This document shows positions 12,722-58,162 of a stretch of DNA of 64,000 bases, in pieces (position 1 is the stretch's first letter; each line of letters opens with the position of its first letter). The notes below the pieces were generated by a model. That model saw nothing but the letters and a program-made list of their open reading frames with translations, ran no database searches and was not told the origin of the DNA. The translations under genes and the position numbers were made by a program. The stretch comes from Burkholderiales bacterium RIFCSPLOWO2_12_FULL_61_40 (GTDB lineage: Bacteria; Pseudomonadota; Gammaproteobacteria; Burkholderiales; Burkholderiaceae_C). The stretch lies in assembly GCA_001770935.1 (NCBI GenBank), contig MESI01000018.1, positions 1 through 64,000 on the forward strand, read 5' to 3'.

Positions 12722-13231
12722 TTGAACTTGGTAATTGATTGGCTGGACCATGCACCCCGGCGTGTACTGGTGTTGATGAGCCTGGCCTGTGTGGCCTTGT
12801 TGGTGTTTGGCATGTACTTGCAGCACGTCGTTGGCCTGGAGCCGTGTCCGATGTGCATAGTGCAACGTTATGCTCTTGTTTTGATAGCTGCTTGCGCAGC
12901 ATTGGCGGGGACTACCGGCAAAAAAGGCTTACAAATTGCCGGGAGTTCAGTATTGCTGCTGTTGGCCGGGGCTGGGGCTTTTGTAGCCGCACGCCAGAGT
13001 TGGCTGCAATGGTACCCGCCGGAGGTTGTTTCGTGCGGGCGCGATCTGTACGGCATGATTGAAACCTTTCCGCTGCAGCGACTTGTCCCCATGATATTCC
13101 GTGGAAGCGGCGATTGCACCAAGGTCGATTGGACCTTTTTAGGCGGTTCTATCGCCAATTGGTCTTTCCTTTGGTTTTGCGCCCTGGGCGGGGTGGCGTT
13201 GGCTTTGATCTGGCGCCAACGCAGACGCTGA
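12722..13231 (+). CDS. dsbB: Disulfide bond formation protein DsbB
   Basis: This 169-residue inner-membrane quinone reductase reoxidises DsbA. The first periplasmic redox pair is C42-P-M-C45 (LEPCPMCIVQRY); the second pair is C105 (VVSCGRD) and C132 (GDCTKVDW). Four hydrophobic helices are evident. No ATG fits; TTG at 12722 follows AAAAGGAACG at good spacing and gives the right length. The codons for residues 50-59, in the second helix, coincide with a copy of a dispersed repeat (12871-12900) without changing the hydrophobic character. Confidence 0.94.
   Translation: MNLVIDWLDHAPRRVLVLMSLACVALLVFGMYLQHVVGLEPCPMCIVQRYALVLIAACAALAGTTGKKGLQIAGSSVLLLLAGAGAFVAARQSWLQWYPPEVVSCGRDLYGMIETFPLQRLVPMIFRGSGDCTKVDWTFLGGSIANWSFLWFCALGGVALALIWRQRRR
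12871..12900 (+). repeat. Dispersed hairpin repeat, copy 1 (inside dsbB)
   Basis: The stretch reads TGCTCTTGTTTTGATAGC then TGCTTGCGCA. It matches the 5' hairpin and CGCA core of the repeat also found at 23583, 32122, 42081, 53666 and 57946. The left arm is imperfect (GCTCT instead of GCTAT). It is read in frame as part of a DsbB membrane helix. Confidence 0.55.
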
Positions 13232-13420
13232 ACGTCAACGTCAACGTCTTCAGGACAGTCGGGCACTCCGCGCAGCCGAAATGAGGCAAGGGTTATCCCG
13301 AGGGGTAGTGATATGACCGCCTTGGCATACAGCTTTTTTTGAAATTCAACGAATGGCAACAAACAATTGCTCTGAGTGTTGGTGCACAATGTTTCGATGA
13401 ATAACGAGAAGGTGTTGGGT

Positions 13421-15181
13421 ATGCCTACTGACTCAGATACGCTTCACTTCCTGGATGACGAATGCGACGGAGGGGCATCCAAAGAGTTGGTTTGGCGCTT
13501 GATGGTGATTGACGACGAGCCCGATGTCCATCGGGCGACAACATTCGCCTTGGCCGGAGTCAAAATTCTTGGGCGTTCTCTGCAGTTTTTGCATGCTTAC
13601 TCTGCAGCTGAGGCAACGCAGCTGCTGCGTACGGAAAAAGACGTGGCCGTTGTACTGCTCGACGTGGTGATGGAGCGCGAGGATGCCGGACTGGCCTTGG
13701 TTAAAACCATTCGGCAGGATTTCAAGCTGACCGAATTGCGCATCATCTTGCGCACCGGTCAACCCGGATATGCCCCGGAAATCGAGACTATCCACGATTT
13801 CGATATCAACGATTACAAGACCAAATCGGAACTGACCCGCACCAAACTGTATGCCACCGTGACTGCGGCGCTGCGTGCCTACCAGCAAATTCGGGAGTTG
13901 GACGAGCTGGCGTTTTATGACCGGCTGTCACGGTTGCCGAATCGCAACAAGTTCATTGATTTGAGCGACGAACGTTTGGAGTCGGGCAACTTTCTGGATG
14001 ACGCCATTGCGATCTTGGACATTGACGATTTTTCCGAGATCAACGATGCACTGGGTCACCAACAGGGTGATCGCTTGTTGCAGTCGGTAGCCGAACGGCT
14101 CAAATCCGAACTGGGTTCTGATGTCATATTGGCCCGTATTGGCAGTGACACGTTCGGGTTGATGGGGTCAACCCAGAGGATGGAGCCTTTGCGGGTGCTT
14201 TCTCTCTTTCGTGAGCCCTTTTGGGTCCATGATGACTCCATGGTGGTTACTGCAACCATGGGGGTGACCAAATCCTTGGGGGCAGGCGTCACTGGGCGGG
14301 ACGCGTTGAAGGATGCCAACATTGCCCTCAAACGCGCCAAAAAGAGTCGGCGCGGTAGCTATGTGATGTACTCCACGGAAATGGGAACCGATATCCGTGA
14401 GCGGGTCCGCCTGCTGCAAAATCTGCGCAGTGCCGTAGAAAGTGAACGCCTGTTTGTGGTGTACCAGCCTCAGGTGAATTTGAAAACAGGCGCAGTGGTG
14501 GGCGTAGAGGCACTGATTCGATGGAAAAAAGAGGACGGCTCCTTCGTTCCCCCTGACCGTTTCATCCCTTTAGCCGAAGCATCCGGCATGATTGTGGCCA
14601 TTGGAGATTGGGTGTTACGCGTGGCATGCGACGAATTGGTACGTTTTCAAGCCCTTGGTTTGCCCAATCTGCGCATGTCCGTCAACGTGTCGCAAATTCA
14701 ATTTCGACACCCCGACTTCCTTGAAAAATTGCGAGTCGCCTTGCTTGAAACGGGTACCAACCCCAAGTACCTTGAGTTGGAGATCACGGAATCAGTGGCC
14801 ATGGAAGATGCTGACTTCATGCTCGAAACACTGCACAAAGTCCGTGAATTGGGTATTTCCATTGCCATCGACGACTTTGGAACAGGGTATTCTTCTCTCA
14901 GCCACCTTCGGCAACTCCCCATCGACCGCCTCAAGATTGACCGAGCCTTTGTGACTGAGCTCAATCAACAGGTATCGGGCGGACATATCGCAGCGATGGT
15001 GGTCGAGCTGGGCCGCAATCTCAACCTGACCGTGATTGCCGAAGGCATCGAAGACGACGGTCAGGCCCAGACCTTGCTGGGCTTGGGCTGCCATGAAGGG
15101 CAGGGTTATCTGTATGCCACACCTCTGTTGCCCCAACAGTTTAAAGAGTGGTATCAAGCCCGGATTGCAAAAGTTCCCTGA
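13421..15181 (+). CDS. Response regulator with GGDEF and EAL domains (c-di-GMP phosphodiesterase)
   Basis: This 586-residue protein has three domains. A receiver covers residues about 25-145 (LMVIDDEPD, phospho-acceptor D81 in VVLLDVVM). A GGDEF domain covers about 160-325, with the active-site motif degenerated to GSDTF, so cyclase activity is unlikely. An EAL domain covers about 340-580 and is intact: VEALIRW, NVSQIQF, ELEITES, DDFGTGYSS, KIDRAF and AEGIED. It should therefore hydrolyse c-di-GMP under phosphorylation control. No histidine kinase is adjacent. The start at 13421 has AGAAGG eight bases ahead; ATG at 13397 is an alternative. Its stop overlaps the next gene by one base. Confidence 0.93.
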   Translation: MPTDSDTLHFLDDECDGGASKELVWRLMVIDDEPDVHRATTFALAGVKILGRSLQFLHAYSAAEATQLLRTEKDVAVVLLDVVMEREDAGLALVKTIRQDFKLTELRIILRTGQPGYAPEIETIHDFDINDYKTKSELTRTKLYATVTAALRAYQQIRELDELAFYDRLSRLPNRNKFIDLSDERLESGNFLDDAIAILDIDDFSEINDALGHQQGDRLLQSVAERLKSELGSDVILARIGSDTFGLMGSTQRMEPLRVLSLFREPFWVHDDSMVVTATMGVTKSLGAGVTGRDALKDANIALKRAKKSRRGSYVMYSTEMGTDIRERVRLLQNLRSAVESERLFVVYQPQVNLKTGAVVGVEALIRWKKEDGSFVPPDRFIPLAEASGMIVAIGDWVLRVACDELVRFQALGLPNLRMSVNVSQIQFRHPDFLEKLRVALLETGTNPKYLELEITESVAMEDADFMLETLHKVRELGISIAIDDFGTGYSSLSHLRQLPIDRLKIDRAFVTELNQQVSGGHIAAMVVELGRNLNLTVIAEGIEDDGQAQTLLGLGCHEGQGYLYATPLLPQQFKEWYQARIAKVP

Positions 15182-16542
15182 TGGAGGACATGCGGTTCAT
15201 GGCCCTTGCACTGGCACAGTGCAAGGCTGCAACATTGGACGGCGAGGTCCCGGTAGGCGCCGTGGTTGTGAAGGACGGGCAGGTCATTGCCACTGGACGC
15301 AATGCGCCCATTTCCCAGCACGACCCCACGGCACATGCGGAAATTGCCGCCCTGCGCGCAGCGGCCAAGGCTTTGGGCAATTACCGACTTGAGGGCTGTG
15401 AACTCTTTGTGACGCTGGAGCCGTGTGCGATGTGTGCGGGTGCCATGTTGCACGCGCGACTGCAGCGCGTCGTATTTGGCGCCTTCGATCCCAAAACCGG
15501 GGCCGCAGGTTCCGTTTTGAATCTGTTTGACAACAATCAACTCAACCATCACACCAAAGTTCTGGGTGGCGTGATGGCGAAGGAATGCGCCCAACCGCTT
15601 CAGGATTTTTTCCGAAGTAAAAGGCAACATGCACATCGCTGCGCCATGCCACTGCGAGAGGATGCCGTCCGGACCCCTGCCACTCGCTTTGAGCATCTTC
15701 CAGATTACCCCTGGGCACCACATTACCTGAGCGATCTTCCAGCTCTGGCGGGCCTTCGGATGCACTACCTGGACGAAGGGCCTGCACAGGCGCCGTTGGT
15801 ATTTCTCTGCCTGCATGGCTACCCAGGTTGGAGCTACCAATACCGAAAGATGCTACCCATCTGGAGTGCTGCTGGCCATCGTGTTGTAGCCCCCGATTTA
15901 ATTGGCTTTGGAAAGAGTGACAAACCCAAGCGAGAAGCTGCCCACACTTTTGAATTTCACCGACAGAGCTTGCTGCAACTCGTCCAGAAATTGGATTTGC
16001 GCAACATCGTTCTGGTGGTTCACGATTGGGGGGGGGTATTGGGTTTAACTTTGCCAATGCATGACCCGGAGCGTTATGTCGGTCTGTTGGCCATGAACAC
16101 GTCGCTGGCTGCCAGCGATGCCCCAGCGGCATCCTCTTTTCAAAATTGGCAGGCACTTTGCACGCAGAATCCCAAACTCAATGCTGGGCGCCTTGTGGCG
16201 ATGGGTGAACCGAACCTGAGCCCCCAGGAGTGTGATGCTTACGACGCCCCCTTTCCAGACGCGGGCCACTGCGCGGCGCTACGGGCTTTTCCGCGCATGG
16301 TGCCACAGTTGGAAAGTGTGCCTGGCGCGCATACAGCGCAACACGCCAGGCAGTTCTTACGCGATGAGTGGAAGGGGAAAAGCCAAGTGTTTCTGACTAC
16401 TTTGGACGCAACAACCGACCCTCTGTGTGAAGATATTCGCCGCTGCCCAAAGCCTGTCAGGGTTGATGGTGCGGGCTATTGGCTTTCAGAAGCCGGAGAG
16501 TTTGTCGCCCAAGCTGCGCTTTCACATTTCACTGCCGGATAA
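15181..16542 (+). CDS. tadA: TadA tRNA adenosine deaminase fused to a haloalkane dehalogenase-like alpha/beta hydrolase
   Basis: This is a single 453-codon frame. Residues 1-150 are TadA, which converts adenosine 34 to inosine in tRNA-Arg(ACG): catalytic H52-A-E54 and zinc ligands C82 and C85 (PCAMCAGAM). Residues about 156-453 are a haloalkane-dehalogenase/epoxide-hydrolase-like domain. Seen there are RTPATRFEHLPDYPW, LHGYPGWSYQYRKM, nucleophile region VVHDWGG (D282) and acid region TTDPL (D413). At the catalytic histidine position the sequence is AGYWLSEAGE (Y433), so the hydrolase domain is probably inactive or altered. An internal ATG at residue 156 could allow separate translation. The start is one base inside the previous stop. 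Confidence 0.9.
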   Translation: MEDMRFMALALAQCKAATLDGEVPVGAVVVKDGQVIATGRNAPISQHDPTAHAEIAALRAAAKALGNYRLEGCELFVTLEPCAMCAGAMLHARLQRVVFGAFDPKTGAAGSVLNLFDNNQLNHHTKVLGGVMAKECAQPLQDFFRSKRQHAHRCAMPLREDAVRTPATRFEHLPDYPWAPHYLSDLPALAGLRMHYLDEGPAQAPLVFLCLHGYPGWSYQYRKMLPIWSAAGHRVVAPDLIGFGKSDKPKREAAHTFEFHRQSLLQLVQKLDLRNIVLVVHDWGGVLGLTLPMHDPERYVGLLAMNTSLAASDAPAASSFQNWQALCTQNPKLNAGRLVAMGEPNLSPQECDAYDAPFPDAGHCAALRAFPRMVPQLESVPGAHTAQHARQFLRDEWKGKSQVFLTTLDATTDPLCEDIRRCPKPVRVDGAGYWLSEAGEFVAQAALSHFTAG

Positions 16543-16549
16543 TCATGCG

Positions 16550-17524
16550 GTGAAAAAACATATCTATATCTATTCTCCGTCCGGTGCTGTACGTGATAAA
16601 GCCGCCTTCAAACGTGGCGTACTGCGACTTCGATCTTTAGGGCATGAGGTGGAGGTGGACCCTGACGCCCTCGCAAGCCATATGCGCTTTGCTGGAGACG
16701 ATGCCACACGCTTGGCCTCCATTCACCGGGCGGCCGCTAGTGGTGCCGACGTAGCCCTTATCTCAAGGGGGGGGTATGGTTTGACCCGCATTCTTGGAAA
16801 AATTCGTTATAAATCAGTCGCTAAAGCCATCGAACGCGGAACCCAGTTTGTCGGCATCAGCGATTTCACTGCATTTCAATTGGCAATGCTCGCCAAGACA
16901 GAGCGCATTACCTGGGCTGGGCCTGCGCTGTGTGAGGGATTTGGAGTAGGGGGGAAACCGGACGCGTTAGACGACCATGGACACGCGGAACCACTCCACC
17001 CCGATGAAATTATGGAAGACTGCTTCAACGACATGTTGACGGGGCAAGGGGAGGGTGCGGGATGGCGCCAGCACCGCGAGCCTGCATCCGCGTCGCCATC
17101 CGCACGCCACGAGACCTGGTCAATAGAAAATGCCACCGTTTGGGGGGGGAATCTGAGTATGGTGGCAGCCCTGCTGGGAACTCCTTATTTCCCCAATATC
17201 AAAGGCGGAATTCTGTTTTTGGAAGATGTTGCAGAGCACCCTTACCGCATTGAACGCCTTTTGACCCAGCTGCTGCATGCGGGGGTATTGGCGCGCCAAA
17301 AGGCTGTCGTCATGGGGCAGTTTACAAATTACAAGCTCACCCCCCATGACAAGGGCTTCAAGTTGCAAACGGTCATTGATTGGCTTCGCAGCCAAATCAA
17401 GGTCCCGGTTTTGACCAATCTCCCTTACGGCCATGTAGCCACCAAAGTATTGCTGCCAGTGGGAGCCAAATCCAACCTGGTTGTTGAGGGACGAGATGCC
17501 CTGATGTTTTGGGGTCACCAATAA
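16550..17524 (+). CDS. ldcA: LD-carboxypeptidase (muramoyltetrapeptide carboxypeptidase, S66 family)
   Basis: This 324-residue peptidase removes the terminal D-alanine from cytoplasmic murein tetrapeptides during cell-wall recycling. Family features are SPSGAV near the N-terminus, ISRGGYGLTRIL (about residue 72), and the nucleophile region VGISDFTAF (S104). The Glu region is GGNLSMVAALLGTPYFP...LFLEDV, and the C-terminal His region is LPYGHVATKVLLPVG. The frame is open upstream into the previous gene, but GTG at 16550, eight bases after that gene's stop, gives the expected N-terminus. Two eight-G tracts lie in the coding sequence, at the GGYG and WGGN motifs. Confidence 0.92.
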   Translation: MKKHIYIYSPSGAVRDKAAFKRGVLRLRSLGHEVEVDPDALASHMRFAGDDATRLASIHRAAASGADVALISRGGYGLTRILGKIRYKSVAKAIERGTQFVGISDFTAFQLAMLAKTERITWAGPALCEGFGVGGKPDALDDHGHAEPLHPDEIMEDCFNDMLTGQGEGAGWRQHREPASASPSARHETWSIENATVWGGNLSMVAALLGTPYFPNIKGGILFLEDVAEHPYRIERLLTQLLHAGVLARQKAVVMGQFTNYKLTPHDKGFKLQTVIDWLRSQIKVPVLTNLPYGHVATKVLLPVGAKSNLVVEGRDALMFWGHQ

Positions 17525-17584
17525 ACGGCTTTAAGTAGGAATGCCCTAAACTCAGCACTTACATATGAATCGGAGCTTCCGGGA

Positions 17585-18502: not shown

Positions 18503-18598
18503 AACAAAAAGCGTTTTTTCTGCGTGACACAACTTAACATAATATACATCGTATCAAATACAGATTGACTCCTTCATTTCTGATGATCAACACCTTTT

Positions 18599-20049: not shown

Positions 20050-20125
20050 GGAAATGAGAGTTCAAAAAGGGCTTGCCTGTGCCCGAGGCGTAAGTTCACC
20101 GCGAGAATGCTGCGGGCTACGACAC

Positions 20126-20488: not shown

Positions 20489-20497
20489 TGGAACGGC

Positions 20498-21511
20498 TCA
20501 ATGGTGTGAGTTTAGGGCTGTTTTGGCTTGCCCTACAAGTGCCTCTTGCATCAATCCATTATTGAACGGGTGATCCATGGTTCGCATGGCTTCTGCCAAT
20601 GCTTTACCCCACCCGCTTAAGGCGCTAAAAGGCACGGGTCCACACAGGTCGACTGCATTGAAAAACCGTGGCTTGGCGCCCATTTGGTGGGCCATTAAAT
20701 CATGGCAAAGTTTGTGCAAGGCGTCGATGATTTGTGGCGCAGTCCACTCTTTTACAAAGGCCACATCCCCGCGCGCCATGGCCTTGGGCAGGGCGGACCA
20801 GGCAAGCGGGTCCCGGCCAGAGGCCGCATACATGATCGCATCTTCCGGCCGCCCTCCCGTGGCCTGTAGCAATAACAGCGCCTGGGCAGCGGCGATGCCT
20901 TGGGACTGCATCCATGTCTGACTTGTTTGCAGGTCGGGCCAACGCATGCTGTGCCCCAGGCAACGGCTGCGAATGGTCGGCAGCAGTTGGTGGGCTGACT
21001 CACTTGCAAGCACGAACTTCACATCTCCCGCGGGTTCCTCCAGCGTTTTGAGCAGGGCATTGGCGGAAATAGCATTCATCTGTTCGGCAGGAAACACCAA
21101 AATCACCTTGCCCCGTCCACGGGCACTGGTTCGCTGCGAAAACTCGACCGCGTCACGCATGGCCTCAACCCGGATCTCCTTGCTGGCCTTGCGTTTTTTG
21201 TCGTCAATGTCGGACTGCGCTTTCTCGCTCAAGGGCCAAGCCAGTTCAAGCATCTGGATTTCTGGCATCAGCACGCACAAGTCGGCATGGGTGCGCACCT
21301 CTATGGCATGGCAACTTCCGCACACCCCGCAAGCACCATCCGGGCCGACCTGTTCGCAGAGCCATGCGCGCGCCAGTGCCATGGCCAAGGCGTACTGGCC
21401 TAATCCCGATGGTCCGTGCAACAACCAGGCATGCCCCCGTTGCGCCAGCAATTGACGCGTCTGCGCCACGATCCATGGCGGAGGCGCTGCACCGATAGAG
21501 TCAGTCACCAT
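20498..21511 (-). CDS. holB: DNA polymerase III subunit delta'
   Basis: This 337-residue AAA+ protein is part of the clamp loader. It begins [20 protein letters not shown], has a degenerate P-loop [16 protein letters not shown] (Gln in place of Lys, as expected for delta'), and a zinc-type cluster C-x8-C-x2-C-x2-C ([16 protein letters not shown]). Other blocks are [26 protein letters not shown] and LLPTIRSRC. The frame is open upstream into tmk, but the ATG at 21511 overlaps the tmk stop by seven bases and gives the family N-terminus. Confidence 0.94.
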
Positions 21512-22167: not shown

Positions 22168-22177
22168 TGTGCTTGGC

Positions 22178-23161: not shown

Positions 23162-23208
23162 AACCCTACTTCCCTTGAGAAACGACAGAAGGAATCATAA
23201 TTCAGGCC

Positions 23209-24159
23209 ATGAACACAGTGATTACCAATACAGTGACAGGCGATAAACCTGTGTCACCTTTGAATGGCGTAGCCGCCCTCACCCACCTGGGTGTCATCCG
23301 GGTTGCTGGAGAAGATGCAGCCAGGTTCATCCACGGGCAACTAACGCAAGATTTCTCACTGCTCGGCTTGCATGAAGCACGTCTGGCGGCCTTTTGTTCT
23401 GCGAAAGGCCGCATGCTGGCGAGTTTTATCGGGTTCAAGCGCAGCGCAGATGAAATCCTGTTGCTGTGCAGCCGGGATATTCTCGCCACCATCCTAAAAC
23501 GCCTGACCATGTTTGTGATGCGCGCAAAGGCCAAACTGAGCGATGTATCCGGCGAGTATCTGGTGTACGGCCTGGCTGGAAATGCTATACAAACCATAGC
23601 TGCTCACGCACATTCCACATGGGCCAAGGCCGATTTAGGCACTGCAAGCGTGGTCAATCTCTACCCTGCTGATGGAACTTCCCGTCAACTCTGGGTCGCC
23701 CCCAAAGAGTCCGCACCGCCACCCGGGCAATCCCTTGCGCTGGAGGTCTGGCTTTGGGGCGAGGTACGCAGTGCGGTAGCCACCATCACGGCACCGGTGG
23801 TCGAAGCCTTTGTACCCCAGATGATCAACTATGAATCCGTCGGTGGGGTGAACTTCAAAAAGGGTTGTTATCCCGGGCAAGAGGTGGTGGCGCGCAGCCA
23901 GTTCCGTGGAACGCTCAAACGCCGGGCATTTGTAGTGCATACAGACGCACCCATGGCGGCGGGGGACGAAGTGTTTGCGAGCGATGACCAGCCGGTTGGC
24001 ACCGTGGTACAGGCCGCAGCAGCTCCCTTGGGTGGGTTTGACGCCATCGTTAGCCTGCAACTCTCCGCCATAGGAGCGGAACCCCTGCATCTCTTGCACA
24101 CCGCCGGCCCAGTAATCAACCTCTTTCCCCTGCCTTACGCTTTACTTGCAGACGTTTGA
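23209..24159 (+). CDS. ygfZ: Folate-binding protein YgfZ (Fe-S cluster assembly factor)
   Basis: This 316-residue GcvT-like protein uses folate in assembly or repair of certain Fe-S enzymes. The diagnostic motif K-G-C-Y-P-G-Q-E is in NFKKGCYPGQEVVARSQFRG near residue 222. The N-terminal domain has RFIHGQLTQDF and CSAKGRMLASF. Residues about 125-143 are encoded by a copy of the dispersed hairpin repeat (23583-23637), in a poorly conserved part of the family. It is divergent from mltG. Confidence 0.94.
   Translation: MNTVITNTVTGDKPVSPLNGVAALTHLGVIRVAGEDAARFIHGQLTQDFSLLGLHEARLAAFCSAKGRMLASFIGFKRSADEILLLCSRDILATILKRLTMFVMRAKAKLSDVSGEYLVYGLAGNAIQTIAAHAHSTWAKADLGTASVVNLYPADGTSRQLWVAPKESAPPPGQSLALEVWLWGEVRSAVATITAPVVEAFVPQMINYESVGGVNFKKGCYPGQEVVARSQFRGTLKRRAFVVHTDAPMAAGDEVFASDDQPVGTVVQAAAAPLGGFDAIVSLQLSAIGAEPLHLLHTAGPVINLFPLPYALLADV
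23583..23637 (+). repeat. Dispersed hairpin repeat, copy 2 (inside ygfZ)
   Basis: The stretch starts TGCTATACAAACCATAGC, then TGCTCACGCA, and ends GGGCCAAGGCCGATTT. The hairpin arms GCTAT/ATAGC and the CGCA core match copies at 42081 and 53666; the tail resembles their GGGCTAGAGGCC-type end. It is read through in frame (AIQTIAAHAHSTWAKADL). Confidence 0.65.
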
Positions 24160-29916: not shown

Positions 29917-29991
29917 TGGTGGGCAGTACAAGTTTCGAACTTGTGACCCCTGCAGTGTGAATGCAGTGCTCTACCCCTGAGCTAACCGCCC
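29917..29991 (-). tRNA. tRNA-Val (anticodon CAC)
   Basis: The minus strand reads GGGCGGTTAGCTCAGGGG into a full cloverleaf. The anticodon stem CTGCA/TGCAG encloses loop TTCACAC, giving anticodon CAC for GUG codons. The T arm ACAAGTTCGAAACTTGT is standard. The discriminator A is followed by an encoded CCA end (29917-29919). The length is 75 bases including CCA. It lies downstream of dnaQ on the same strand and has its own terminator. Confidence 0.96.
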
Positions 29992-31113: not shown

Positions 31114-32970
31114 TCAAAGGGCTTCGATATTTTTACCAGCGAGGGCATGCGCTATACCCCGGTTCATACGCATGGCGGCAAAGGCCTCGGTCGCCTGCGC
31201 CAAAGCCTTGCTGAAAGCTTCCACGGTGGCTGCGTCACCGCTGGACTTGGCAGACACCAGGGCTTGCATGGCACCATCGATGTTGCTGCGCTCGGCGGCG
31301 CCCAACAAATCACTGTCGGCTTCAAGGGCTGTTTGGGTCGCCATCACCAAGCGGTCGGCGTCCACACAGGCCTCCACCAGCGCACGGGTGCGCATGTCCG
31401 ACTCTGCCGTGGCAAAACTGTCCTTGAGCATCTGGGCAATCTGGTCGTCACCCAATCCGTAAGAGGGTTTGACATCGATACGCGCCTCCACACCGCTGAC
31501 CTCCTCGCGGGCCGACACATTCAGCAGGCCATCGGCATCCACGGTAAAGGTCACGCGGATACGGGCGGCGCCTGCGGTCATGGGTGGAATGCCCCGTAGC
31601 TCAAACCGGGCCAGGCTGCGGCAATCGGCCACCAGATCGCGCTCCCCCTGCACCACGTGCAGGGCCAAGGCGGTCTGCCCGTCCTTGTAGGTGGTGAAGT
31701 CTTGCGCCATGGCGGTGGGAATGGTCTGGTTGCGGGGAACAATACGCTCCACCAAACCGCCCATGGTCTCTACACCCAAGGACAAGGGAATCACGTCCAG
31801 CAGCAGCAAGTCCCCTTCGGCATTGTTGCCAGCCAACTGATTGGCCTGGATCGACGCGCCCAGGGCCACCACTTCGTCAGGGTTGAGGTTAGTCAGGGGT
31901 GCGCGTCCGAAAAACTCGGCCACCGCCGCACGCACCTGCGGCATGCGGGTCGAGCCCCCCACCATGACCACCCCCTGCACCTCGTCCACCGACAACTTGG
32001 CATCCCGCAGGGCTTTGCGCACGGCGGCGATGGTACGGGCGGTCAGATGCGAAGTCAGTGCATGGAACTGCTCCGCCTTCACATCAAAATCGACTGCAGC
32101 CCCCGCCAATTGGTCGTGGAAAGCTACGTTATTTGTAGCAGATAGCGCTTCCTTGCACTCCCTGGCTGCCACCTTGAGGGAAGCCTTGTCGGCCGCTGTA
32201 ACGGCCTGCATGCCCGTTTGGGCCAGAACCCAGTCCACCAGCGCGTGGTCGTAGTCGTCGCCCCCCAAGGCGGAATCGCCCCCGGTTGCCACCACCTCAA
32301 AGACCCCTTGGGTCAGGCGAAGAATGGAAATATCAAAGGTGCCACCACCCAAATCGTAAATGGCGTACACGCCTTCGCTGGCATTGTCCAGCCCATAGGC
32401 AATGGCGGCTGCCGTGGGCTCGTTGATCAGGCGCAGCACATTCAAACCCGCCAATTGGGCCGCGTCTTTGGTCGCCTGGCGCTGCGCGTCGTCGAAATAG
32501 GCGGGTACCGTGATTACTGCGCCATACAAATCATCGTTAAAAGTGTCTTCGGCCTGGTAACGCAGTGTGGCCAAAATCTCAGCACTGACCTCCACCGGCG
32601 ATTTTTCTCCCGCCACGGTATGGATTCCCAGCATGCCAGCGTGCTCGGCAAAACGGTAGGGCAACTTCCCTGCCCCCTTGACATCGGCCAGGCTGCGTCC
32701 CATGAAACGCTTCACGGAAGAAATGGTGTTCTCAGGGTCGAGTGCCAGATGCTCCTGCGCAGCATAGCCAATTTGACGCCCCCCGCCCGCCAGGTAACGC
32801 ACGACCGACGGCAGAATCACCCGCCCTTGGCTATCGGGCAAACATTCGGCCACGCCATGGCGCACAGCCGCGATCAGGGAATGTGTAGTGCCCAGGTCAA
32901 TGCCCACCGCGACACGCCGTTCGTGCGGATTGGGGGACTGTCCGGGTTCGGAGATTTGTAGAAGCGCCAT
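31114..32970 (-). CDS. hscA: Fe-S assembly chaperone HscA (Hsp70 family)
   Basis: This 618-residue specialised Hsp70 binds the LPPVK motif of IscU and drives cluster transfer with HscB. It has the Hsp70 phosphate loop [59 protein letters not shown] and [13 protein letters not shown], followed by a substrate-binding domain and a short helical lid. The segment [11 protein letters not shown] (about residue 280) is encoded by a copy of the dispersed repeat on the opposite strand (32122-32150). Confidence 0.96.
32122..32150 (+). repeat. Dispersed hairpin repeat, diverged copy 3 (inside hscA)
   Basis: The plus strand reads AGCTACGTTATTTGTAGC then AGATAGCGCTT, a variant in which the hairpin arms have changed together (GCTAC/GTAGC) and the core is GCGC. 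It is opposite to the direction of hscA. The compensatory arms support conservation of the hairpin; the similarity is weaker than in other copies. Confidence 0.4.
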
Positions 32971-41074: not shown

Positions 41075-42058
41075 TTAACGGTTCGCGACCGGGTACACGC
41101 CTTGCGGACGCCACAGCAAAATCGCCACCATCAGCGCGATATTGGAAAACAGCGCCACTTTCGGGAGCAAAAATCCGGTGTAGTTGGCCATCAGCCCCAC
41201 CAGTAGCGCACCGATCAGAGCGCCCCCAGTGGAGCCCAGGCCGCCGATGATGATCACGATAAAAATCAGCACATTGACCTGTGCGCCCATTTGTGGCGTC
41301 ACGTTTTGCTGGTACAGGCCCCACATCACGCCGCCCAGCCCGGCCAGCGCGCTGCCGACCACAAACACCCCCACAAACAGGCGCTTGATGCGGTAGCCCA
41401 GGGATTCGACCATCTCGCGGTCCTGCACGCCGGCGCGGATCAGCAGGCCAATTTTGGTGCGGCTCAGCGTCCAGGCCAGCACGGCAAACACCAACAGCCC
41501 CACCGCCACGGCCAGCAGGCGGTACTTTTCAATGGAGGCGTCGCCCAGCAGCACGGCACCACGCAGGCCTTCGGGCAGGGGCAAGGCGATTTGCGCCGGG
41601 CCCCAGATGACCTTGATGAGTTCCTCGCCAATGATCATGCCGCCCATGGTGATGAGGATTTGCTTGAGGTGCTGGCCGTAGACCGGTCGCACGATAAAAC
41701 GCTCAAACGCCAGCCCCAGCGCCCCCGACACCGCCATGGCGACCAGCATGGCCGGAAACACCGCCACCAGGTTGCGCCACAGCTCTTGCGAGCCGGTCCA
41801 GTCGCCCATCAGGCCCAGCACCGTGGTGGCGACAAAGGCACCCAGCGCAATGAACACGCCGTGGCCAAAATTCAGTACATCCATCAGCCCAAACACCAGG
41901 GTCAGGCCCGAGGCGATGATGAAAATGATCATGCCCATGGCCAGCCCGGCCACCGTGAGCGTGAGCCAGGTGGAGGGTGAACCCATGAAGGGCAACACCA
42001 GCAGCGCCAGTGCGGGCACCAGCAGCAGCGGTTTCCAGTCGAAATTCAAGGCCTTCAT
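41075..42058 (-). CDS. livH: Branched-chain-type ABC transporter permease (LivH family)
   Basis: This 327-residue polytopic permease has ASGLTLVFGLMDVLNFGHGVFIALGAF (the LivH signature), RPVYGQHLKQILITMGGMIIGEEL, GVQDREMVESLGYRIKRLFVGVF and VIIIGGLGSTGGALIGALLVG. AGGAGA six bases before the ATG at 42058 supports that start over one six codons upstream. A dispersed repeat (42081-42140) lies in the gap to livF. Confidence 0.94.
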   Translation of the reverse strand: MKALNFDWKPLLLVPALALLVLPFMGSPSTWLTLTVAGLAMGMIIFIIASGLTLVFGLMDVLNFGHGVFIALGAFVATTVLGLMGDWTGSQELWRNLVAVFPAMLVAMAVSGALGLAFERFIVRPVYGQHLKQILITMGGMIIGEELIKVIWGPAQIALPLPEGLRGAVLLGDASIEKYRLLAVAVGLLVFAVLAWTLSRTKIGLLIRAGVQDREMVESLGYRIKRLFVGVFVVGSALAGLGGVMWGLYQQNVTPQMGAQVNVLIFIVIIIGGLGSTGGALIGALLVGLMANYTGFLLPKVALFSNIALMVAILLWRPQGVYPVANR

Positions 42059-42080
42059 GCGGTTTCTCCTACGCACCGTT

Positions 42081-42140
42081 TTGCTATGTTTTTCATAGCT
42101 GTTTGCGCATATAAATAAAGGGCTAGAGGCCTATTTGGCT
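42081..42140 (+). repeat. Dispersed hairpin repeat, copy 4 (between livF and livH)
   Basis: The stretch has hairpin TTGCTATGTTTTTCATAGC, then TGTTTGCGCATATAAATAAA, then a second small hairpin GGGCTAGAGGCC. Together with the copy at 53666 it defines the fullest form of the family. It lies opposite to the direction of the operon, in a 100-base gap between otherwise tightly packed genes. Confidence 0.7.
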
Positions 42141-42158
42141 TAGAATTTTTCAAGAATT

Positions 42159-42884
42159 TCATATCGCCAACCCCAGCAGCGACCGCTGCAATGCTTCGTC
42201 TTCGGCCAGCGCCTGCATGGAGCCCGCGTGCACCACCCGGCCATCGTCCATCACTGCCACCTGGTCGCCCAGGCGTTTGGCGAAATTGATGTTTTGCTCC
42301 ACCAGCAAGATGGTGGTGCCGGTGGCCTTGAGTTGGGCGAAGGCGTCGATCATGTTGTTGATGATGGCCGGGGCCAGCCCCTTGCTGGGCTCGTCCACGA
42401 TCAGCAGTTCACGCGGCTCCACAATGGCGCGCGCCACCGCCAGCATCTGCTTTTGCCCGCCCGAGAGCTTGCCAGCGGGGTGGTTCCAGAACTTCTCCAC
42501 CGCCGGAAACAGCGAAAAGATCCACTGCAGCCGCGCCTCGTCCATCTGACCGGCGTGTTTGGCCTTGCGGGCGGCCAGCAGCATGTTTTCCTTGACGCTG
42601 AGGTCGGAAAAAATGCCCATGTTTTCGGGCACGTAGGCGATGTTCAGAGCGGCGATCTGCGGGGTGTTCATCTGCGTGATGTCCTGGCCCGCAAACGCCA
42701 GCCGCCCTTGCGAGGCCTGCCACAGGCCCATGATGGTGCGCAAGGTGGTGGTTTTACCCGCCCCGTTGCGCCCCAGCAGCATGGTGAGTTGCCCCTTGGG
42801 CACCACCAGGTCCACGCCGTGCAGGATGTGGTAGGCGCCGATGTGGGTGTGCACCCCTTCCAGTTTCAACAAAATATCGCTCAT
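42159..42884 (-). CDS. livF: Branched-chain-type ABC transporter ATP-binding protein LivF
   Basis: This 241-residue ATPase has Walker A GRNGAGKTTTLR, Q-loop region YVPENMGIFSDLSVKENM, signature LSGGQKQMLAVARAI, Walker B LLIVDEPSKGLAP and the H-loop EQNINFA. The length and motifs fit LivF. Its start overlaps the LivG stop by four bases. Confidence 0.95.
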   Translation of the reverse strand: MSDILLKLEGVHTHIGAYHILHGVDLVVPKGQLTMLLGRNGAGKTTTLRTIMGLWQASQGRLAFAGQDITQMNTPQIAALNIAYVPENMGIFSDLSVKENMLLAARKAKHAGQMDEARLQWIFSLFPAVEKFWNHPAGKLSGGQKQMLAVARAIVEPRELLIVDEPSKGLAPAIINNMIDAFAQLKATGTTILLVEQNINFAKRLGDQVAVMDDGRVVHAGSMQALAEDEALQRSLLGLAI

Positions 42885-46656: not shown

Positions 46657-46780
46657 GTGTGGATGTTACCGTGCAGCGGTCACTCGACTAATAGTCCAGA
46701 CTTGCTCTCGTGCCCCACTGCAGTCAAGCGCTTGTTACGAAATGATGCCTTACGCGGTGTTTAGAAAACATCGACTAAAT

Positions 46781-48811: not shown

Positions 48812-48822
48812 CTCATACGTAT

Positions 48823-51144: not shown

Positions 51145-51223
51145 GTGATCTCCTTTAGCCTTGCTTTGATACTTAACTGTAATCCGATTTCGATACCACT
51201 ACGCAGCAGGTGCCATCATTTCT

Positions 51224-51586: not shown

Positions 51587-51672
51587 GATTTCATTCTATC
51601 GGGCGTGCCGATGTCACGCTGCGTCTAGCCAAAGTTAGTAGCGAAATTTACACATTCAAGTCAAGTCGCAAA

Positions 51673-51709
51673 TAAAAACCGCTCTATGCCTGTCGGCATA
51701 GAGCGGTTT
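51673..51709 (-). terminator. Rho-independent terminator of icd
   Basis: AAACCGCTCTATGCC (51676-51690) and GGCATAGAGCGGTTT (51695-51709) form a perfect 15-bp stem with a 4-base loop. Read on the minus strand it is followed by TTATTT. It lies 45 bases after the icd stop. Confidence 0.88.
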
Positions 51710-51754
51710 CAATGGCGATGCGATCTGAACGGTCAGACCAATGACCGCACGTAT

Positions 51755-53008: not shown

Positions 53009-53212
53009 GAAAAAAAAGATCTCCGTGAATGGTGGGAATCGGATTTACCTGAGAAAAGCCAAATGAGGCGCTTCTAGAAGTGTGGGGAATTCTAGTCCCA
53101 AAAAATTACTTATTACTGTCAACTCGCGAGATTGAAAAGCGGCCTTTATGAAGAAATGTCCGCTAAAGTTGGCATTTTTTGACAATAGCCATTTACGTCC
53201 ACTTCAAAAGAA

Positions 53213-53665
53213 ATGAAATATTTTGCAATCGGGTTATTAGGGCTGGCAGCATTTCTGGGCGGCTCGGCGTACGCCCAGAACACACCGCAGATGAATCTGC
53301 AGCGCATCAAAATTTCGGCAGGTATGCACCTCATTGATACCCAGGTCGCTGGAACCCCTGAACAACGTTCTATTGGTTTGATGTACCGCAAAGAAATGCC
53401 ACAACATGAGGGAATGCTTTTTATTTTTGAACAAGCCTCCATGCAGTGTTTCTGGATGAAAAACACTGCACTTCCCTTGACTGCGGCCTTTGTGGCTGAC
53501 GACGGCACCATCGTGAATCTGGCCGACATGAAGCCGCAAACCACCGATTCCCACTGTTCCAAGCAACCGGTGCGTTATGTGCTGGAAATGAACCAGGGCT
53601 GGTTTGGGAAAAAAGGAATCAAAGAAGGAGCCAAGCTGGGTGGAAAGCCATTCGAAGCCAGGTAA
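53213..53665 (+). CDS. DUF192 family exported protein
   Basis: This 150-residue protein has a signal peptide (MKYFAIGLLGLAAFLGGSAYA) and a DUF192 domain: AGTPEQRSIGLMYRKEMPQHEGMLFIFE, CFWMKNTALPLTAAFVADDGTIVNLADMKP and PVRYVLEMNQGWFGKKGI. The family has no established function. A dispersed repeat begins at the base after its stop codon. Confidence 0.92.
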   Translation: MKYFAIGLLGLAAFLGGSAYAQNTPQMNLQRIKISAGMHLIDTQVAGTPEQRSIGLMYRKEMPQHEGMLFIFEQASMQCFWMKNTALPLTAAFVADDGTIVNLADMKPQTTDSHCSKQPVRYVLEMNQGWFGKKGIKEGAKLGGKPFEAR

Positions 53666-53720
53666 TGCTATATTTTCAATAGCTTCTCACGCATATGGCT
53701 AAAGGGCTACAGCCCGATTC
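53666..53720 (+). repeat. Dispersed hairpin repeat, copy 5 (abutting the DUF192 stop codon)
   Basis: The stretch has hairpin TGCTATATTTTCAATAGC, TTCTCACGCATATGGCTAAA, and tail GGGCTACAGCCCGATTC. It follows the TAA of the DUF192 gene with no intervening base. Its structure matches copy 4 and its sequence aligns closely with copy 6 in lpxK. Confidence 0.7.
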
Positions 53721-53725
53721 ATCAT

Positions 53726-53757
53726 AAAAAAAGCCACCCTGACGGTGGCTTTTTTTA
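53726..53757. terminator. Bidirectional terminator between the DUF192 gene and sodB
   Basis: AAAAAAGCCACC (53727-53738) pairs with GGTGGCTTTTTT (53744-53755). A and T tracts on both sides let it serve both convergent genes. Confidence 0.9.
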
Positions 53758-53769
53758 CTTTTAACAAAT

Positions 53770-54351
53770 TCAGGCGAAATTGGTTTCCGCAAAGCCCCAG
53801 TTCACCAGTTTGTCGAAGAATGTTTCGACATACTTCTGGCGCAGGTTGCGGTAGTCGATGTAGTAAGCATGCTCCCAAACATCCACGGTCAACAGCGCCT
53901 TGTCGGCGGTCGTCAGCGGCGTACCGGCGGCCCCCATGTTCACAATATCCACACTACCGTCGGCTTTTTTAACCAACCAGGTCCAACCCGAGCCGAAGTT
54001 GCCGACAGCGGATTTCACGAATGCTTCCTTGAATGCCGTGTAGGAACCCCACTTGGCATCAATTGCTGCGGCCAGAGCACCAGAAGGCTCGCCACCGCCG
54101 CTGGGCTTCATGCCATTCCAGAAGAAAGTGTGGTTCCAGATCTGCGCAGAATTGTTGTAGATACCGCCGCTGGACTTTTTGATGATCTCTTCCAGCGCCA
54201 TGTTTTCAAACTCGGTCCCTTTTTGCAGGTTGTTGAGGTTGACCACATATGCATTGTGGTGTTTGCCATGATGGTACTCCAGGGTTTCTTTGGAGTAGGC
54301 GGGTGCCAAGGCATCAATTGCGTAAGGCAGTGCGGGCAAAGTATGTTCCAT
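53770..54351 (-). CDS. sodB: Superoxide dismutase (Fe type)
   Basis: This 193-residue enzyme dismutates superoxide. Metal ligands are visible in [14 protein letters not shown] (His), NHTFFWNGM (His) and [13 protein letters not shown] (Asp and His). The sequences [10 protein letters not shown] and GSGWTWLV point to the iron rather than manganese form. GAGGA precedes the ATG at 54351; the upstream open frame is not part of the protein. It lies 43 bases after xseA on the same strand. Confidence 0.96.
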
Positions 54352-54394
54352 GGAGTCCTCAAGTTTGGGTTGCAATAAATCCCGATTGTAGAAA

Positions 54395-55705
54395 CTAATT
54401 GACTTTTCGATTGACAACGGTCAAGTCAACCCCACCATCGGCAAGGGTTGCTCGAACCGATAGACCGACGTGCGCCTGCGACACACGGGTCAACGCATCG
54501 CCATTTTCCAGGGTCAGCCAGGCGTAGCCGCGTTTGAGAACAAGCGAAGGGTCCAGCAAATCCAGGCGCAAAGCCGCGCGTGTAGTTCGCTCACTCTGGC
54601 GCTGTAACGCGCGACCGAACACCGCTGAAAAATCCTGTTGTAAACGGGCCAAATCCGCACGCTTGGATCGCAAGCCCAGTTGCAACGCATGTGCCATTCT
54701 TTGCTCTGCAGACCCCACCCGTAAGCGCAGTCGGCTCGCCAACTCCGATGGCCGACCAAGACAGGTCGCGACAAAGTCCAGACGCTGGGCCTGCCGGTCC
54801 AGGCTGCGTACCAATGCAGCGCGCATGCGGTCTTCCAACACGGTAACGGCATGGAGCCATGCCTGCGTAGGCTGCGACACCAACTCCGCCGCAGCAGTCG
54901 GCGTAGGCGCCCGCAAATCGGCTACAAAATCGGCGATTGTGAAATCGGTTTCATGCCCGACACCACAGATGATGGGCACAGGACTACGGACCAAGGTGCG
55001 GGCCAGTTGCTCATCGTTAAACGCCCACAGGTCCTCCATGGCGCCGCCTCCGCGCACCAGCAAAATCACGTCAATGCGGACCTGCTCGCCATGGGAACCC
55101 GTGGCCAGTGCATACAAACTTCCGAGTGCCTGGTTGAGTTCGTGCGGTGCATTGTCACCTTGGACTGCCGCTGGCGCCAGCACCACCGGGATGTGCGGCA
55201 CCCGCCTTTGCAGTGCGGTCACCACATCATGCAAGGCTGCGGCCCCCAGCGAGGTTACGACACCAATGCCACGCGGCATGGTAGGTAGCGGGCGTTTGCG
55301 CTGTGCATCAAAAAGCCCTTCGTGCTCCAGCTTGGCCTTGAGCTTGAGGAATTGCTCAAAAAGCGTCCCTTGCCCTGCCCTGCGCATGCTCTCCACGACC
55401 AGCTGCAATTCCCCACGCGGCTCGTACACGCCCAGGCGCCCACGCACCTCTACACGGTCACCGTCGCGGGGTAAAAAATCCAGCGAACCGGCAGCACGCC
55501 TGAACATGGCGCAACGGATCTGGCCGCTTTCGTCTTTCAGAGAAAAATAACAATGCCCGCTGGTCGCACGCGAGAAACCACTGATTTCGCCCCCCACGCT
55601 CACCGGATTGAAACGTGCGTCCAGGCTATCGGCGATGGCCCTGCACAAAGCCCCGACTTGCCAAACCCTTGCTGCCGATGCTTGCGGGACAGCCTCAAAC
55701 ACCAC
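54395..55705 (-). CDS. xseA: Exodeoxyribonuclease VII large subunit
   Basis: This 436-residue nuclease subunit has an N-terminal OB-fold ([34 protein letters not shown]) and the catalytic domain with [37 protein letters not shown] and [30 protein letters not shown] coiled-coil region follows, ending [20 protein letters not shown]. The small subunit gene is not in this window. The 292-base gap to exbB (55706-55997) shows only promoter-like sequence. Confidence 0.96.
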
Positions 55706-55997
55706 ACACCCCGGACGGCAAGCGCAACTGCGGTTGGCACCTTTTCCACAGTCCGCACGGGGCTACGCATGCGCCAGTGATGTCCTGCGAAGTTCGTCTT
55801 TTTTTGTCAATCAACTTTGATTTCATTGAATTTTTTATTGCCTCATTTGTCATCATTCTGTCAAAACGACGCACCGGTGCGGGTTTGGGGTGGTTGTACC
55901 GCAAGTTACACACAAAGTTGTCCACACGATTTGTGGATTGCAGACTCCACAGGCTGCGCCATAATCGCACAGCATTTCATCTGCGCGGAGTGACCAT

Positions 55998-56624
55998 TTG
56001 TTTTCCATCATACAAGCCGCGGGCTGGCCAATATGGCCCTTAATTGCCTGCTCCATACTGGCCATGGCCATCGTTATTGAACGCTTTGTAAGCCTGAAGG
56101 CCAGCAAGGTTGCACCACCGCGTCTATTGGAAGAGGTCCTGGGGGTAACCCGCACCAGTGTTCCTGCGCCCGACGTGGTTGCGCAACTGGAACGCAACTC
56201 CGCCATGGGAGAAGTACTCGCCAGCGGCTTGCGCGCCCTGAACGCCGACCCCCGATGCACCGAAGACGACTTGCGCGCTGTGATGGAAGGTTCTGGGCGT
56301 ATCGTGGCACACCGCCTGGAGCACTACCTTAGCGCATTGGCCACGATTGCCTCAGCGGCACCCTTGATGGGACTTTTTGGTACGGTCGTAGGCATGATTG
56401 AAATATTTGGATCACAGGCCCCCGGCGGTGCGACCGGCGGCAACCCTGCCCAACTCGCCCACGGCATCTCAATTGCGCTGTACAACACCGCATTTGGGCT
56501 GATTGTTGCGATTCCGTCGTTGATTTTCTGGCGCTATTTTCGGGGACGGGTGGATGAATACCTGCTCACGCTGGAACTTGCAGCGGGGCATTTGGCTCGG
56601 CATTTAAAGGCCTTGCGTAAATAA
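55998..56624 (+). CDS. exbB: ExbB/TolQ-family proton channel protein
   Basis: This 208-residue inner-membrane protein energises TonB-type transport with its ExbD partner. It has a first helix (GWPIWPLIACSILAMAIVIERFVSL), a cytoplasmic loop, and two later helices in ATIASAAPLMGLFGTVVGMIEIF and GISIALYNTAFGLIVAIPSLIFW. The start is TTG at 55998 with GGAG eight bases ahead; no ATG fits. The exbD gene follows after 31 bases. Without tonB adjacent, a TolQ-like role cannot be excluded. Confidence 0.93.
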   Translation: MFSIIQAAGWPIWPLIACSILAMAIVIERFVSLKASKVAPPRLLEEVLGVTRTSVPAPDVVAQLERNSAMGEVLASGLRALNADPRCTEDDLRAVMEGSGRIVAHRLEHYLSALATIASAAPLMGLFGTVVGMIEIFGSQAPGGATGGNPAQLAHGISIALYNTAFGLIVAIPSLIFWRYFRGRVDEYLLTLELAAGHLARHLKALRK

Positions 56625-56655
56625 GCCGCAGCGCCTCGCTTTTTCGTTTACCGCC

Positions 56656-57084
56656 ATGAACTTTCGCCCCCGCCGCCAGGACGAGCCCGAAATCAACCTG
56701 ATCCCGTTCATCGACGTGCTGCTGGTTGTGCTCATTTTTCTCATGCTGTCCACGACCTACAGCAAGTTCACAGAAATGCAGCTGACCTTGCCGGTCGCCG
56801 ACACAGACGCACAGCGCGATTACCCCAAAGAACTTATCGTGACCGTCAGTGCCGAAGGTGCCTACAGCGTCAATCGGCTACCGGTGGCTGGACGCAGCCT
56901 CGAAAGCGTCGCGGCCGCATTGACAGAAGGGGCCAAGGCAGGAAAGGACACCGTGATCATCATCAGCGCCGATGCCAGCGCCAAACACCAGGCGGTGGTG
57001 ACCGTGATGGAGGCTGCACGACGCTCTGGACTGAACCAGATTACCTTTGCTACGCAGTCGACCACGCAGTCAGGTGGCAAGTAG
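56656..57084 (+). CDS. exbD: ExbD/TolR-family protein
   Basis: This 142-residue protein has one N-terminal transmembrane helix carrying the essential Asp in [19 protein letters not shown] (Asp near residue 22) and a periplasmic domain. It forms the proton-conducting complex with the ExbB-type protein encoded just upstream. The lpxK start follows four bases after its stop. Confidence 0.95.
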
Positions 57085-57088
57085 CGCA

Positions 57089-58162
57089 ATGCCTTCTTCG
57101 TGGCGGCTTCGGCTGGAGCACGCCCTGCTTCGTACGTGGACGCAACGCGGATTGGCCGCTTGGCTGCTAAGGCCCGTGTCTTTGCTCTTTCTGGTGATGG
57201 TTGACCTACGTCGCCAGCTTTTCCGCGTAGGGTTGCTTAAGGTCCAACGCGTCAACGCCATGGTTATCGTGGTCGGCAACGTACTTGCCGGTGGTGCAGG
57301 AAAAACCCCCACGGTTATTTCCATCGTCCAACACCTGAAGTCACAGGGTCGCCGCGTAGGGGTCATCTCACGGGGCTATGGCCGCAATGGCGAGGATTGC
57401 CGCGAGGTCAGGCCAGACTCTCGCCCCCAAGAGGTCGGAGATGAACCGCTTCTGCTGCGCCATGCGACCCAGGTTCCGGTGTTCGTCGGGCGAAGTCGTG
57501 TTGCGGCGGCCAAAGCCCTGCTCAAGCAACACCCGCAGACTGAAATTATTGTGTGCGACGACGGTCTTCAGCACTACCGCCTGTACCGCGATTTGGAAAT
57601 TTGTGTTTTCGATGACCGGGGCTGTGGCAACCATTGGCTGCTCCCTGCCGGCCCTCTGCGGGAGTGCTGGCCCCGCATCCCGTTGCCTCAAGCGGGTCAA
57701 CACCAGGACCGCTTCATGGTGTTGCATACCGGCAGCCACCCTGCATTCGCCGGCTATACCGCGCAACGCAGTTTGGCGCCGCACATGGTGCGTCTGGATG
57801 GGACTGTGATTCCTGTCAGCATGTTGTGCACACCTGGCTCCAAACCCCTGATGGCAATTGCAGGAATTGCGCAGCCTGAAGTGTTCTTTGCCATGCTGCG
57901 CGCACGCGGTTTGCCGTTGGCAAAAACTCTGGCGCTTCCAGATCACTATAATTTTGATAGCTTGCCACGCAGTGTTTACGAGGGCTATCAGCTGATTTGT
58001 ACCGAAAAAGATGCTGGAAAGCTATGGCAAATCGCGCCCGGTGCTCTGTCATCGCCTTTGGTACAAACCGCAGAACCCGCCTTTTTCCACACGCTGGACG
58101 CCTGCGTCGCAGAGCGGCTTGCGCCAACGCTATCATCTACGCATGGACACCAGACTTCTTGA
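57089..58162 (+). CDS. lpxK: Tetraacyldisaccharide 4'-kinase
   Basis: This 357-residue membrane-associated kinase adds the 4'-phosphate of lipid A. It has an N-terminal membrane helix, P-loop [16 protein letters not shown] (about residue 60), [38 protein letters not shown] and the late TEKDAGKL. The frame is open upstream; ATG 57089 fits best. Residues about 287-304 are encoded by a copy of the dispersed repeat (57946-57999) next to the conserved PDH and TEKD motifs. It overlaps the following small gene by 20 bases. Confidence 0.95.
57946..57999 (+). repeat. Dispersed hairpin repeat, copy 6 (inside lpxK)
   Basis: CTATAATTTTGATAG, then CTTGCCACGCAGTGTTTACG, then AGGGCTATCAGCTGATTT. It aligns base for base over most of its length with copy 5 at 53666 (hairpin arms, CACGCA core, GGGCTA tail, GATT end). 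It is read in frame as [17 protein letters not shown]. Confidence 0.6.

Follow-up and report, generated by a model that had tools for sequence, protein, structure and literature searches.

The window, a 64,000-nt stretch at the start of contig MESI01000018.1 of Burkholderiales bacterium RIFCSPLOWO2_12_FULL_61_40, carries six members of a dispersed family of DNA motifs, about 70 bp long, which recurs throughout the 4.99-Mb draft genome to which the window belongs, both between and inside genes. This family is real, and its informative positions are constrained in place. The comparative patterns described below point to a double-stranded DNA recognition site, scattered in both orientations, which some trans-acting machine that recognises DNA would maintain and re-tune where it stands; that this machine is the competence pilus or DNA-uptake apparatus is a hypothesis with about even odds. 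Other genomes of the same bacterial family are referred to below by G-numbers, the draft genome itself being G000.

One asymmetric unit, dispersed through the genome

A search of the draft genome with the 15-base core pattern ATAGCTGCTYRCGCA gives 121 exact matches, 62 on the forward and 59 on the reverse strand, while the reversed control gives none. A matrix was then refined on 849,592 bp of the draft genome; at a threshold of at least 30 bits it recovers 95 full copies from that DNA, equivalent to one per 8.9 kb and, by extrapolation, to some 560 copies per genome. The score distribution is bimodal, with 10 places at 5-30 bits next to the 95 copies, and no place in the reversed sequence exceeded the 0-5-bit bin. 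Because of the contrast with both controls, the family stands far beyond chance, and the genome-wide excess, the density of roughly one per 10 kb and the dispersal between genes and, in frame, within them were all correctly anticipated by the original prediction. The strands are balanced (47/48), and the coefficient of variation of copy spacing is 0.78, against a random 95% range of 0.80-1.15. A large excess of one strong consensus on both strands, a hallmark of uptake sequences, is therefore present here.

Placed in register, 30 copies form one asymmetric unit of ~70 nt (columns about -16 to +53) with background beyond, and a consensus information of ~61 bits. In order, a TTGCTAT block and a T/A-rich step precede the core ATAGCTGCT(T/C)(G/A)CGCA, after which come a stretch of loose conservation, GGGGGCTAGAGGCC, an ATTTG step and lastly a step rich in A/T. 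An optional GGGCTA...GCC tail, previously attributed to the fuller copies, does not emerge from this 30-copy profile, in which there is only the one unit.

The GCTAT/ATAGC arms had been read as a hairpin. Among the 95 copies, their pairing shows no excess, with 68 of 95 paired at columns -8/0 (70.8 expected) and 63 of 95 at columns -9/1 (67.7 expected). Because the arms do not co-vary, the combination GCTAC/GTAGC in hscA, formerly interpreted as covariation, is not evidence of pairing. Alifold proposed 6 and 3 pairs on two alignments, none of them compensatory, and with the targeted pairing test also negative, a hairpin or RNA structure was rejected. The dependence that does exist is local: by mutual information, seven column pairs exceed the largest of 20 shuffle maxima, all of them one or two columns apart (GG/AA/GC at 23-24, TT/AA at 39-40, AT/TA/GT at 16-17, TG/TA/CA at 9-10, and neighbours). 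AT steps recur with a period of 10.5-11 bp, both in the draft genome and in a second set, from G217. Local dependence and helically phased AT steps would fit double-stranded DNA that is read through its shape, by a protein making a long contact on one helix face.

The copies in the window are the following, with bit scores from the first model (a covariance model built from 30 copies) unless stated; ORF denotes open reading frame.

12866-12939, plus strand: copy 1, inside dsbB (ORF 12617-13231, plus), codon phase 0; 61.6 bits, exact core
23578-23651, plus strand: copy 2, inside ygfZ (ORF 23209-24159, plus); 56.2 bits
32145-32072, minus strand: copy 3, weak, inside hscA (ORF 31114-32970, minus); 18.0 bits, E 0.0013
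42077-42150, plus strand: copy 4, intergenic, between a BPD_transp_2 permease ORF (41075-42076, minus) and an ABC ATPase ORF (42159-42884, minus); 65.7 bits
53661-53734, plus strand: copy 5, beginning at the stop codon of a DUF192 gene (53213-53665, plus); 46.9 bits
57939-58012, plus strand: copy 6, inside lpxK (ORF 57047-58162, plus), between the LPDHY and ICTEKDA motifs; 34.9 bits, with a one-base offset in the core

All six places originally proposed thus hold a family member within a few bases, two of them intergenic and four in coding sequence as claimed, although the hscA copy is weak and lies on the minus rather than the plus strand. Five copies score 35-66 bits, and after the hscA copy (18 bits) the next place in the window reaches 10.3. 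The refined matrix gives the hscA copy 34.9 bits and its orthologue in G312, a sister genome, 43.8. The GC content of the family in the window is 35-51%. The motif of copy 4 is visible in G312 despite alignment gaps, and copy 5 is also found there. The DUF192 gene preceding copy 5 is convergent with a gene for Fe/Mn superoxide dismutase (53770-54417, minus), and a terminator-like GC stem with a T run, seen by eye at window ~53722-53760, overlaps and trails the end of this copy.

Maintenance of the sites in place

G312 is 86-93% identical to the draft genome over the window stretches compared. Of the 95 copies, 34 lie in DNA that can be aligned with G312 and 33 of these have the motif at the same place (seven gapped cases were judged by eye), so turnover is low. 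The lone exception concerns an ArnT-like protein: within its N-terminal membrane helix the G312 sequence lacks the motif and is of nearly equal length, between flanks that are 91% and 87% identical. Conservation was counted in the 22 ungapped pairs, none of which scored below 30 bits in G312: changed cells amount to 33/660 (5.0%) in informative columns, 65/462 in middling ones, 76/506 in weak ones and 178/1089 (16.3%) in the flanks. The gradient is present in the 13 pairs outside known genes (informative 17/390, weak 50/299, flank 114/639) and in the 9 coding pairs (16/270, 26/207 and 64/450, respectively), a recount that treats dsbB, ygfZ and lpxK as coding. The informative columns are under constraint in place, and the sites turn over slowly. 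Separately, G312 has a 3.7-kb insertion (G312:C85 26277-29958) relative to window 46676-46679, with a motif copy at its left edge (26296); the draft genome has nothing between the corresponding flanks.

The most telling difference between species concerns position 26, which is G in 92% of the copies of the draft genome (n = 95) and in 93% of those of G312 (n = 54), and C in 89% of those of G217 (n = 76). The G217 set stems from 420 kb of a complete genome, of which 400 kb were chosen around exact cores, so that its density is biased. The divergence at this position is 0.57 (null 95%, 0.063). In the draft-genome and G312 DNA that was compared, flank homologues exist for 25 of the 76 G217 copies, 17 with the motif and 8 without. 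At 15 of the 17 shared sites G217 has C and its counterpart G; for one of these 15 the matching flank is 48 bp long. One of the remaining two sites has lost 1 nt, and a C stands in the shifted place. Position 26 is the third codon base in both dominant phases (GGG/GGC, or GCC/GCG on the other strand), and the switch between G and C is therefore silent there. Small samples of other Rhodoferax are mostly G, and single copies from 26 genomes of other genera comprise 16 with C and 8 with G. A clade-specific dialect at orthologous sites, as is characteristic of uptake sequences, was thus found at this position in one species contrast. Since the difference is genome-wide and affects the same orthologous sites, the sites seem to follow a recogniser rather than to persist as passive relics, which points to a trans-acting DNA recogniser behind the upkeep of the motif.

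According to the codon test, which misses dsbB, ygfZ and lpxK and classed them as non-coding, 22 of 93 copies are coding (two more lie at edges), compared with 1,062 of 2,000 random places. Copies are depleted from genes yet common there, mostly in codon phase 0 of either strand. Of 29 intragenic copies collected from this and other genomes, 20 were set against family models; for the genes of the window, solved structures served for comparison. Many are length-neutral: DsbB 0, LpxK -2, YgfZ about 3 and LolD 0 amino acids (aa), the structure agreeing in the last case, as well as TIGR00275 -1, YbiB -7, LpxB -2 (in another genus) and HGSNAT +3. Less clear-cut values by family model were +11 for PrmB, +15 for AMP-binding_C, +45 for Pyr_redox_2, +33 to +48 for PurL (16 at the copy) and +20 for a FAD protein (about 7 by structure); for PurK, two models gave +6 to +8 and the best model +30. 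In five of the 20 proteins the copy lies outside or between the model matches.

Across the genus, orthologues of ygfZ, dsbB and lpxK are nearly gap-free, with motif scores from none or weak to full. At the ygfZ site, 14 near-equal-length orthologues score 6.7-55.5 bits with the first matrix, and four of the ygfZ orthologues have gaps of 2-3 aa. LpxK is gap-free in 8 loci of the genus, with a 2-aa gap to the Aquifex protein, and the same lpxK codons score -87.6 bits in G350 and 44.9 in G346. Copy 1 encodes RYALVLIAACAALAGTTGKKGLQI within DsbB, which aligns with E. coli DsbB without gaps across the copy. By the original prediction, coding copies fully conserved in distant relatives as ordinary protein sequence would have told against it. 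That picture holds for the proteins, since those of dsbB, ygfZ, lpxK and hscA align to distant homologues without element-sized gaps, so that these copies need not be added inserts, but it fails for the motif, which comes and goes at the same codons, as in lpxK. An origin of the family from lpxK or dsbB was considered and rejected, as the motif at their orthologous sites varies from absent or weak to strong while the length stays the same. At the ATA position of ygfZ, 11 of 11 Ile codons among the 14 listed orthologues are ATA, a codon that accounts for 675 of 8,309 Ile codons (8.1%) in the draft genome. Its use reflects a DNA-level constraint inside the gene.

Across the bacterial family, 76 of the 299 genomes, from 44 of the 141 genera, have at least one exact core. 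In the genus of the window, probably Rhodoferax, 31 of 61 genomes and 19 of 30 near-complete ones contain the core, from 1 to 147 times. Counts of the exact core fall short of the copy numbers, especially in other dialects. When a larger collection was scanned with a longer pattern, Rhodoferax, Curvibacter and Polaromonas were among the genera named in the 80 matches listed of at least 108 loci.

Candidate explanations

If the recogniser were the competence pilus or DNA-uptake apparatus, the motif would work like the uptake signal sequence (USS) or the DNA uptake sequence (DUS). DNA bearing it would be bound and imported preferentially, alleles nearer to the preference of the receptor would be recombined back more often, and the motif would build up wherever proteins and regulation tolerate it. 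A shift in receptor preference would then shift the whole genomic set, and new sites would owe their origin in part to mutation and in part to short inserts, as in MetH. The fuller proposition, which we rate slightly below even, is that Comamonadaceae have a self-DNA uptake signal which evolved independently and would be the third of its kind, ~70 bp long, with AT steps on one helix face, species dialects, a co-evolving receptor, and sites founded by in-frame inserts as well as mutation. If the motif is an uptake signal, it would be by far the longest known to us.

Several observations weigh against an uptake function. The ~61 bits of the consensus exceed what a receptor should need, and the density of 1 per 9 kb is below that of USS and DUS (about 1 per kb, PMC1626085). 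No receptor was found, and competence genes do not discriminate core-rich from core-free genomes, ComEC being present in 14/14 genomes tested and small HHH_3 (ComEA-like) ORFs in 12/14, in both kinds alike. TIGR00426 scored above its cut-off in 0/61 genomes and in the draft genome matched only a 675-aa ORF; since it mostly matched a ~800-aa protein, PF12836 was used for the ComEA-like search. Additionally, a 31.9-kb R. antarcticus record labelled as a plasmid (L456, NZ_CP019241.1) holds 8 copies of at least 35 bits. This record carries chromosomal-looking genes such as pabB and may be a piece of chromosome. Points in favour of uptake are the presence of these competence genes and the lack of any copy above 15 bits in two plasmid stretches of 50 kb each, one from a conjugative R. 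ferrireducens plasmid and one from pPNAP01.

The manner in which some sites arose also weighs against uptake. In MetH, the region between RCLADFVAP and DYAGxFA was read in 28 of 30 loci (two partial ones omitted), 26 of which matched the expression used. The long form, in 9 of the 26, has 41 aa (45 in G301) and motif scores of 15 to 70 bits, and the short form, in 17, has 19-21 aa (28 in G350) and no motif: 25 aa stand in place of 5, a 60-nt presence/absence indel. The short form is found in core-rich G312, G346, G331 and G217, the G312 protein being 94% identical to that of the draft genome, and the long form in core-poor G348, G319, G344 and G306. In at least one case, then, a site came or went together with a 60-nt piece, which tells against a purely mutational origin of the sites. 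Relative to family models, MetH gains 23 aa (19 gap columns at the copy by structure), MurU 22 and WaaA 18 to 25, gains that look like element-sized inserts and that pure mutation would not give, and ThiL gains 22 by model and about 15 at the copy, which is partly element-like.

As an observation in its own right, a motif copy lies about 0.4-0.5 kb from a small ComEA-like HHH_3 gene in three genomes:

Draft genome, G000:C98: core 20839-20853; HHH_3 match 21306-21473
G217:C1: core 1930078-1930092; HHH_3 match 1930527-1930694
G312:C64: copy 267092-267165; HHH_3 match 266505-266669

The main rival, which we hold to be considerably less probable than a site kept by an uptake machine, is a binding site for a chromosome-organising or DNA-wrapping protein (a nucleoid protein, gyrase-like wrapping or a condensin loader). 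Such sites would be selected for their own intracellular function, and their dialects would follow the protein. It would equally account for the constraint on sites in place, the helical period of the AT steps, the dependence between neighbouring steps and the even spacing, and the depletion from genes speaks in its favour. It is harder to reconcile with the 30 of 61 genomes of the genus (11 of 30 near-complete) that are without an exact core, although a changed dialect could hide copies, and with copies in both orientations inside proteins, for example LolD and LpxK in this genome and LpxB in a different genus; the 61 bits also exceed the need of a site-specific protein.

An unlikely explanation is a functionless small mobile element, akin to a miniature inverted-repeat transposable element (MITE) or to the Rickettsia palindromic elements, inserting in frame within genes and also between them, with the likeness of its copies due to common descent. 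Rickettsia palindromic elements are short dispersed repeats, some of them in genes in frame, inserted as an in-frame peptide. The resemblance to them suggested originally survives in part: MetH shows an in-frame insertion of element length with empty orthologous sites, including that of the sister genome, whereas dsbB, ygfZ and lpxK are length-neutral. The gains in MurU and WaaA likewise favour a mobile element, as do three near-identical copies within 5.5 kb (G000:C33 100297-105783), the clearest sign of local copying. On another contig (G000:C127), two copies on the same strand start 96 bp apart, at 2156 and 2252. Against mobility stand the length-neutral copies in DsbB, LpxK, YgfZ, LolD, LpxB, YbiB and others, the constraint on informative columns, the low turnover and the dialect difference at orthologous sites. 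There is also little subfamily structure. An apparent excess of close pairs (11 at 15 differences or fewer, where chains of order 1, 2 and 3 predict 0.4, 0.95 and 1.6) vanishes under a strength-matched null, with 8.5 expected, and subfamilies formed by copying were rejected; what is left are 3 pairs at 10 differences or fewer, against 0.15 expected. Of the marks of a MITE, inspection by eye revealed neither inverted termini in the column profile nor a target-site duplication at the MetH junctions, the latter in one junction set only.

An RNA-level element (a terminator, riboregulator or mRNA stabiliser) is highly improbable. In its favour, copy 5 has a stop codon at its start and a terminator-like stem after it, and the compatible Polaromonas motif is reported to lie often close to adjacent genes (PMC5217627), but copies occur in both orientations inside coding genes with no supported base pairs, and the sole Rfam match in the window is a tRNA (29920-29991). 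Least credible of all, and contradicted on both defining features tested, are the repetitive extragenic palindromic (REP) or REPIN hairpins moved by a REP-associated tyrosine transposase (RAYT, Y1 type) that the original prediction had in mind: 55 of the 61 genomes in the genus do have a Y1 protein, often in an ORF of ~240 aa, but whatever their motif count (G300, G302 and G303 have no exact core and one Y1 match, G328 has 31 exact cores and no Y1 match), the arms do not co-vary, and the unit is asymmetric and ~70 nt long, whereas REPs are described as 20-40-bp palindromes with a tagged end (PMC3733652).

Significance and relation to known systems

Should the motif be an uptake signal, it would serve as a species-specific DNA 'passport' that shapes gene exchange in these bacteria. 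The genus, with its many, few or no copies and at least two dialects, would then be a natural experiment in which to find the receptor and to see how a receptor and hundreds of sites change together. Should it be a chromosome-organising site, it would be a very long one that shapes protein sequence. On either reading, a demand at the DNA level shapes positions of housekeeping proteins, which is relevant to annotators and protein modellers.

A literature search found no uptake sequence reported for Comamonadaceae, and a text search did not find the core sequence, neither of which proves absence from print. The nearest precedent is an uncharacterised statistical motif pair of Polaromonas naphthalenivorans CJ2, ATAGCT(N)22CAAAAG, with 125 copies, of which 101 are intergenic, 18 in genes and 6 overlapping, and with R. 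ferrireducens having the most pairs among the genomes scanned (PMC5217627). Its ATAGCT and the spacing to a CTAGAG/CAAGAG block fit columns 0-5 and 28-33 here, a spacing which suggests that the two are the same; the pair was reported without boundaries, evolution or dialects. The same source lists, in its Table 7, an Acidovorax ebreus motif, GCTTAT(N)5AAGCG, with 114 copies, which may represent a further signal of this bacterial family.

Among repeats, the BRE elements are likewise dispersed in Bordetella, Polaromonas, Rhodoferax and others, sometimes within genes (PMC3110155). They are 75-91 bp long, with a mean of 69% GC in Bordetella, and form tandem variable-number arrays, whereas the present family has 35-51% GC in the window and is mostly single; the two are set apart by GC and tandem habit, not by alignment. 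The REP/REPIN-RAYT systems are also short and dispersed, with some copies in genes in frame (PMC3116915, PMC3733652), but here there is neither a maintained hairpin nor a link to a transposase.

The closest parallels are the uptake sequences, although the likeness would be one of behaviour and not of sequence. DUS occurs in eight dialects that limit exchange in Neisseriaceae (PMC3630211), and a whole-genome dialect differing by few bases between related species is a feature shared with the motif described here; the 10-bp DUS, without flanking motifs (PMC1626085), has no sequence likeness to it, and no receptor is identified here. The USS of Pasteurellaceae (H. influenzae and A. pleuropneumoniae types) has a 9-bp core with two AT segments, has been shown to arise by mutation, and has AT tracts that act through DNA shape (PMC1626085, PMC7811141). 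Compared with it, the present motif is far longer and richer in information and sparser, some of its copies look inserted, and it belongs to a different bacterial family; both have in common a strong consensus, a core and AT tracts about a helical turn apart, shape effects, sites inside genes and clade-specific types.

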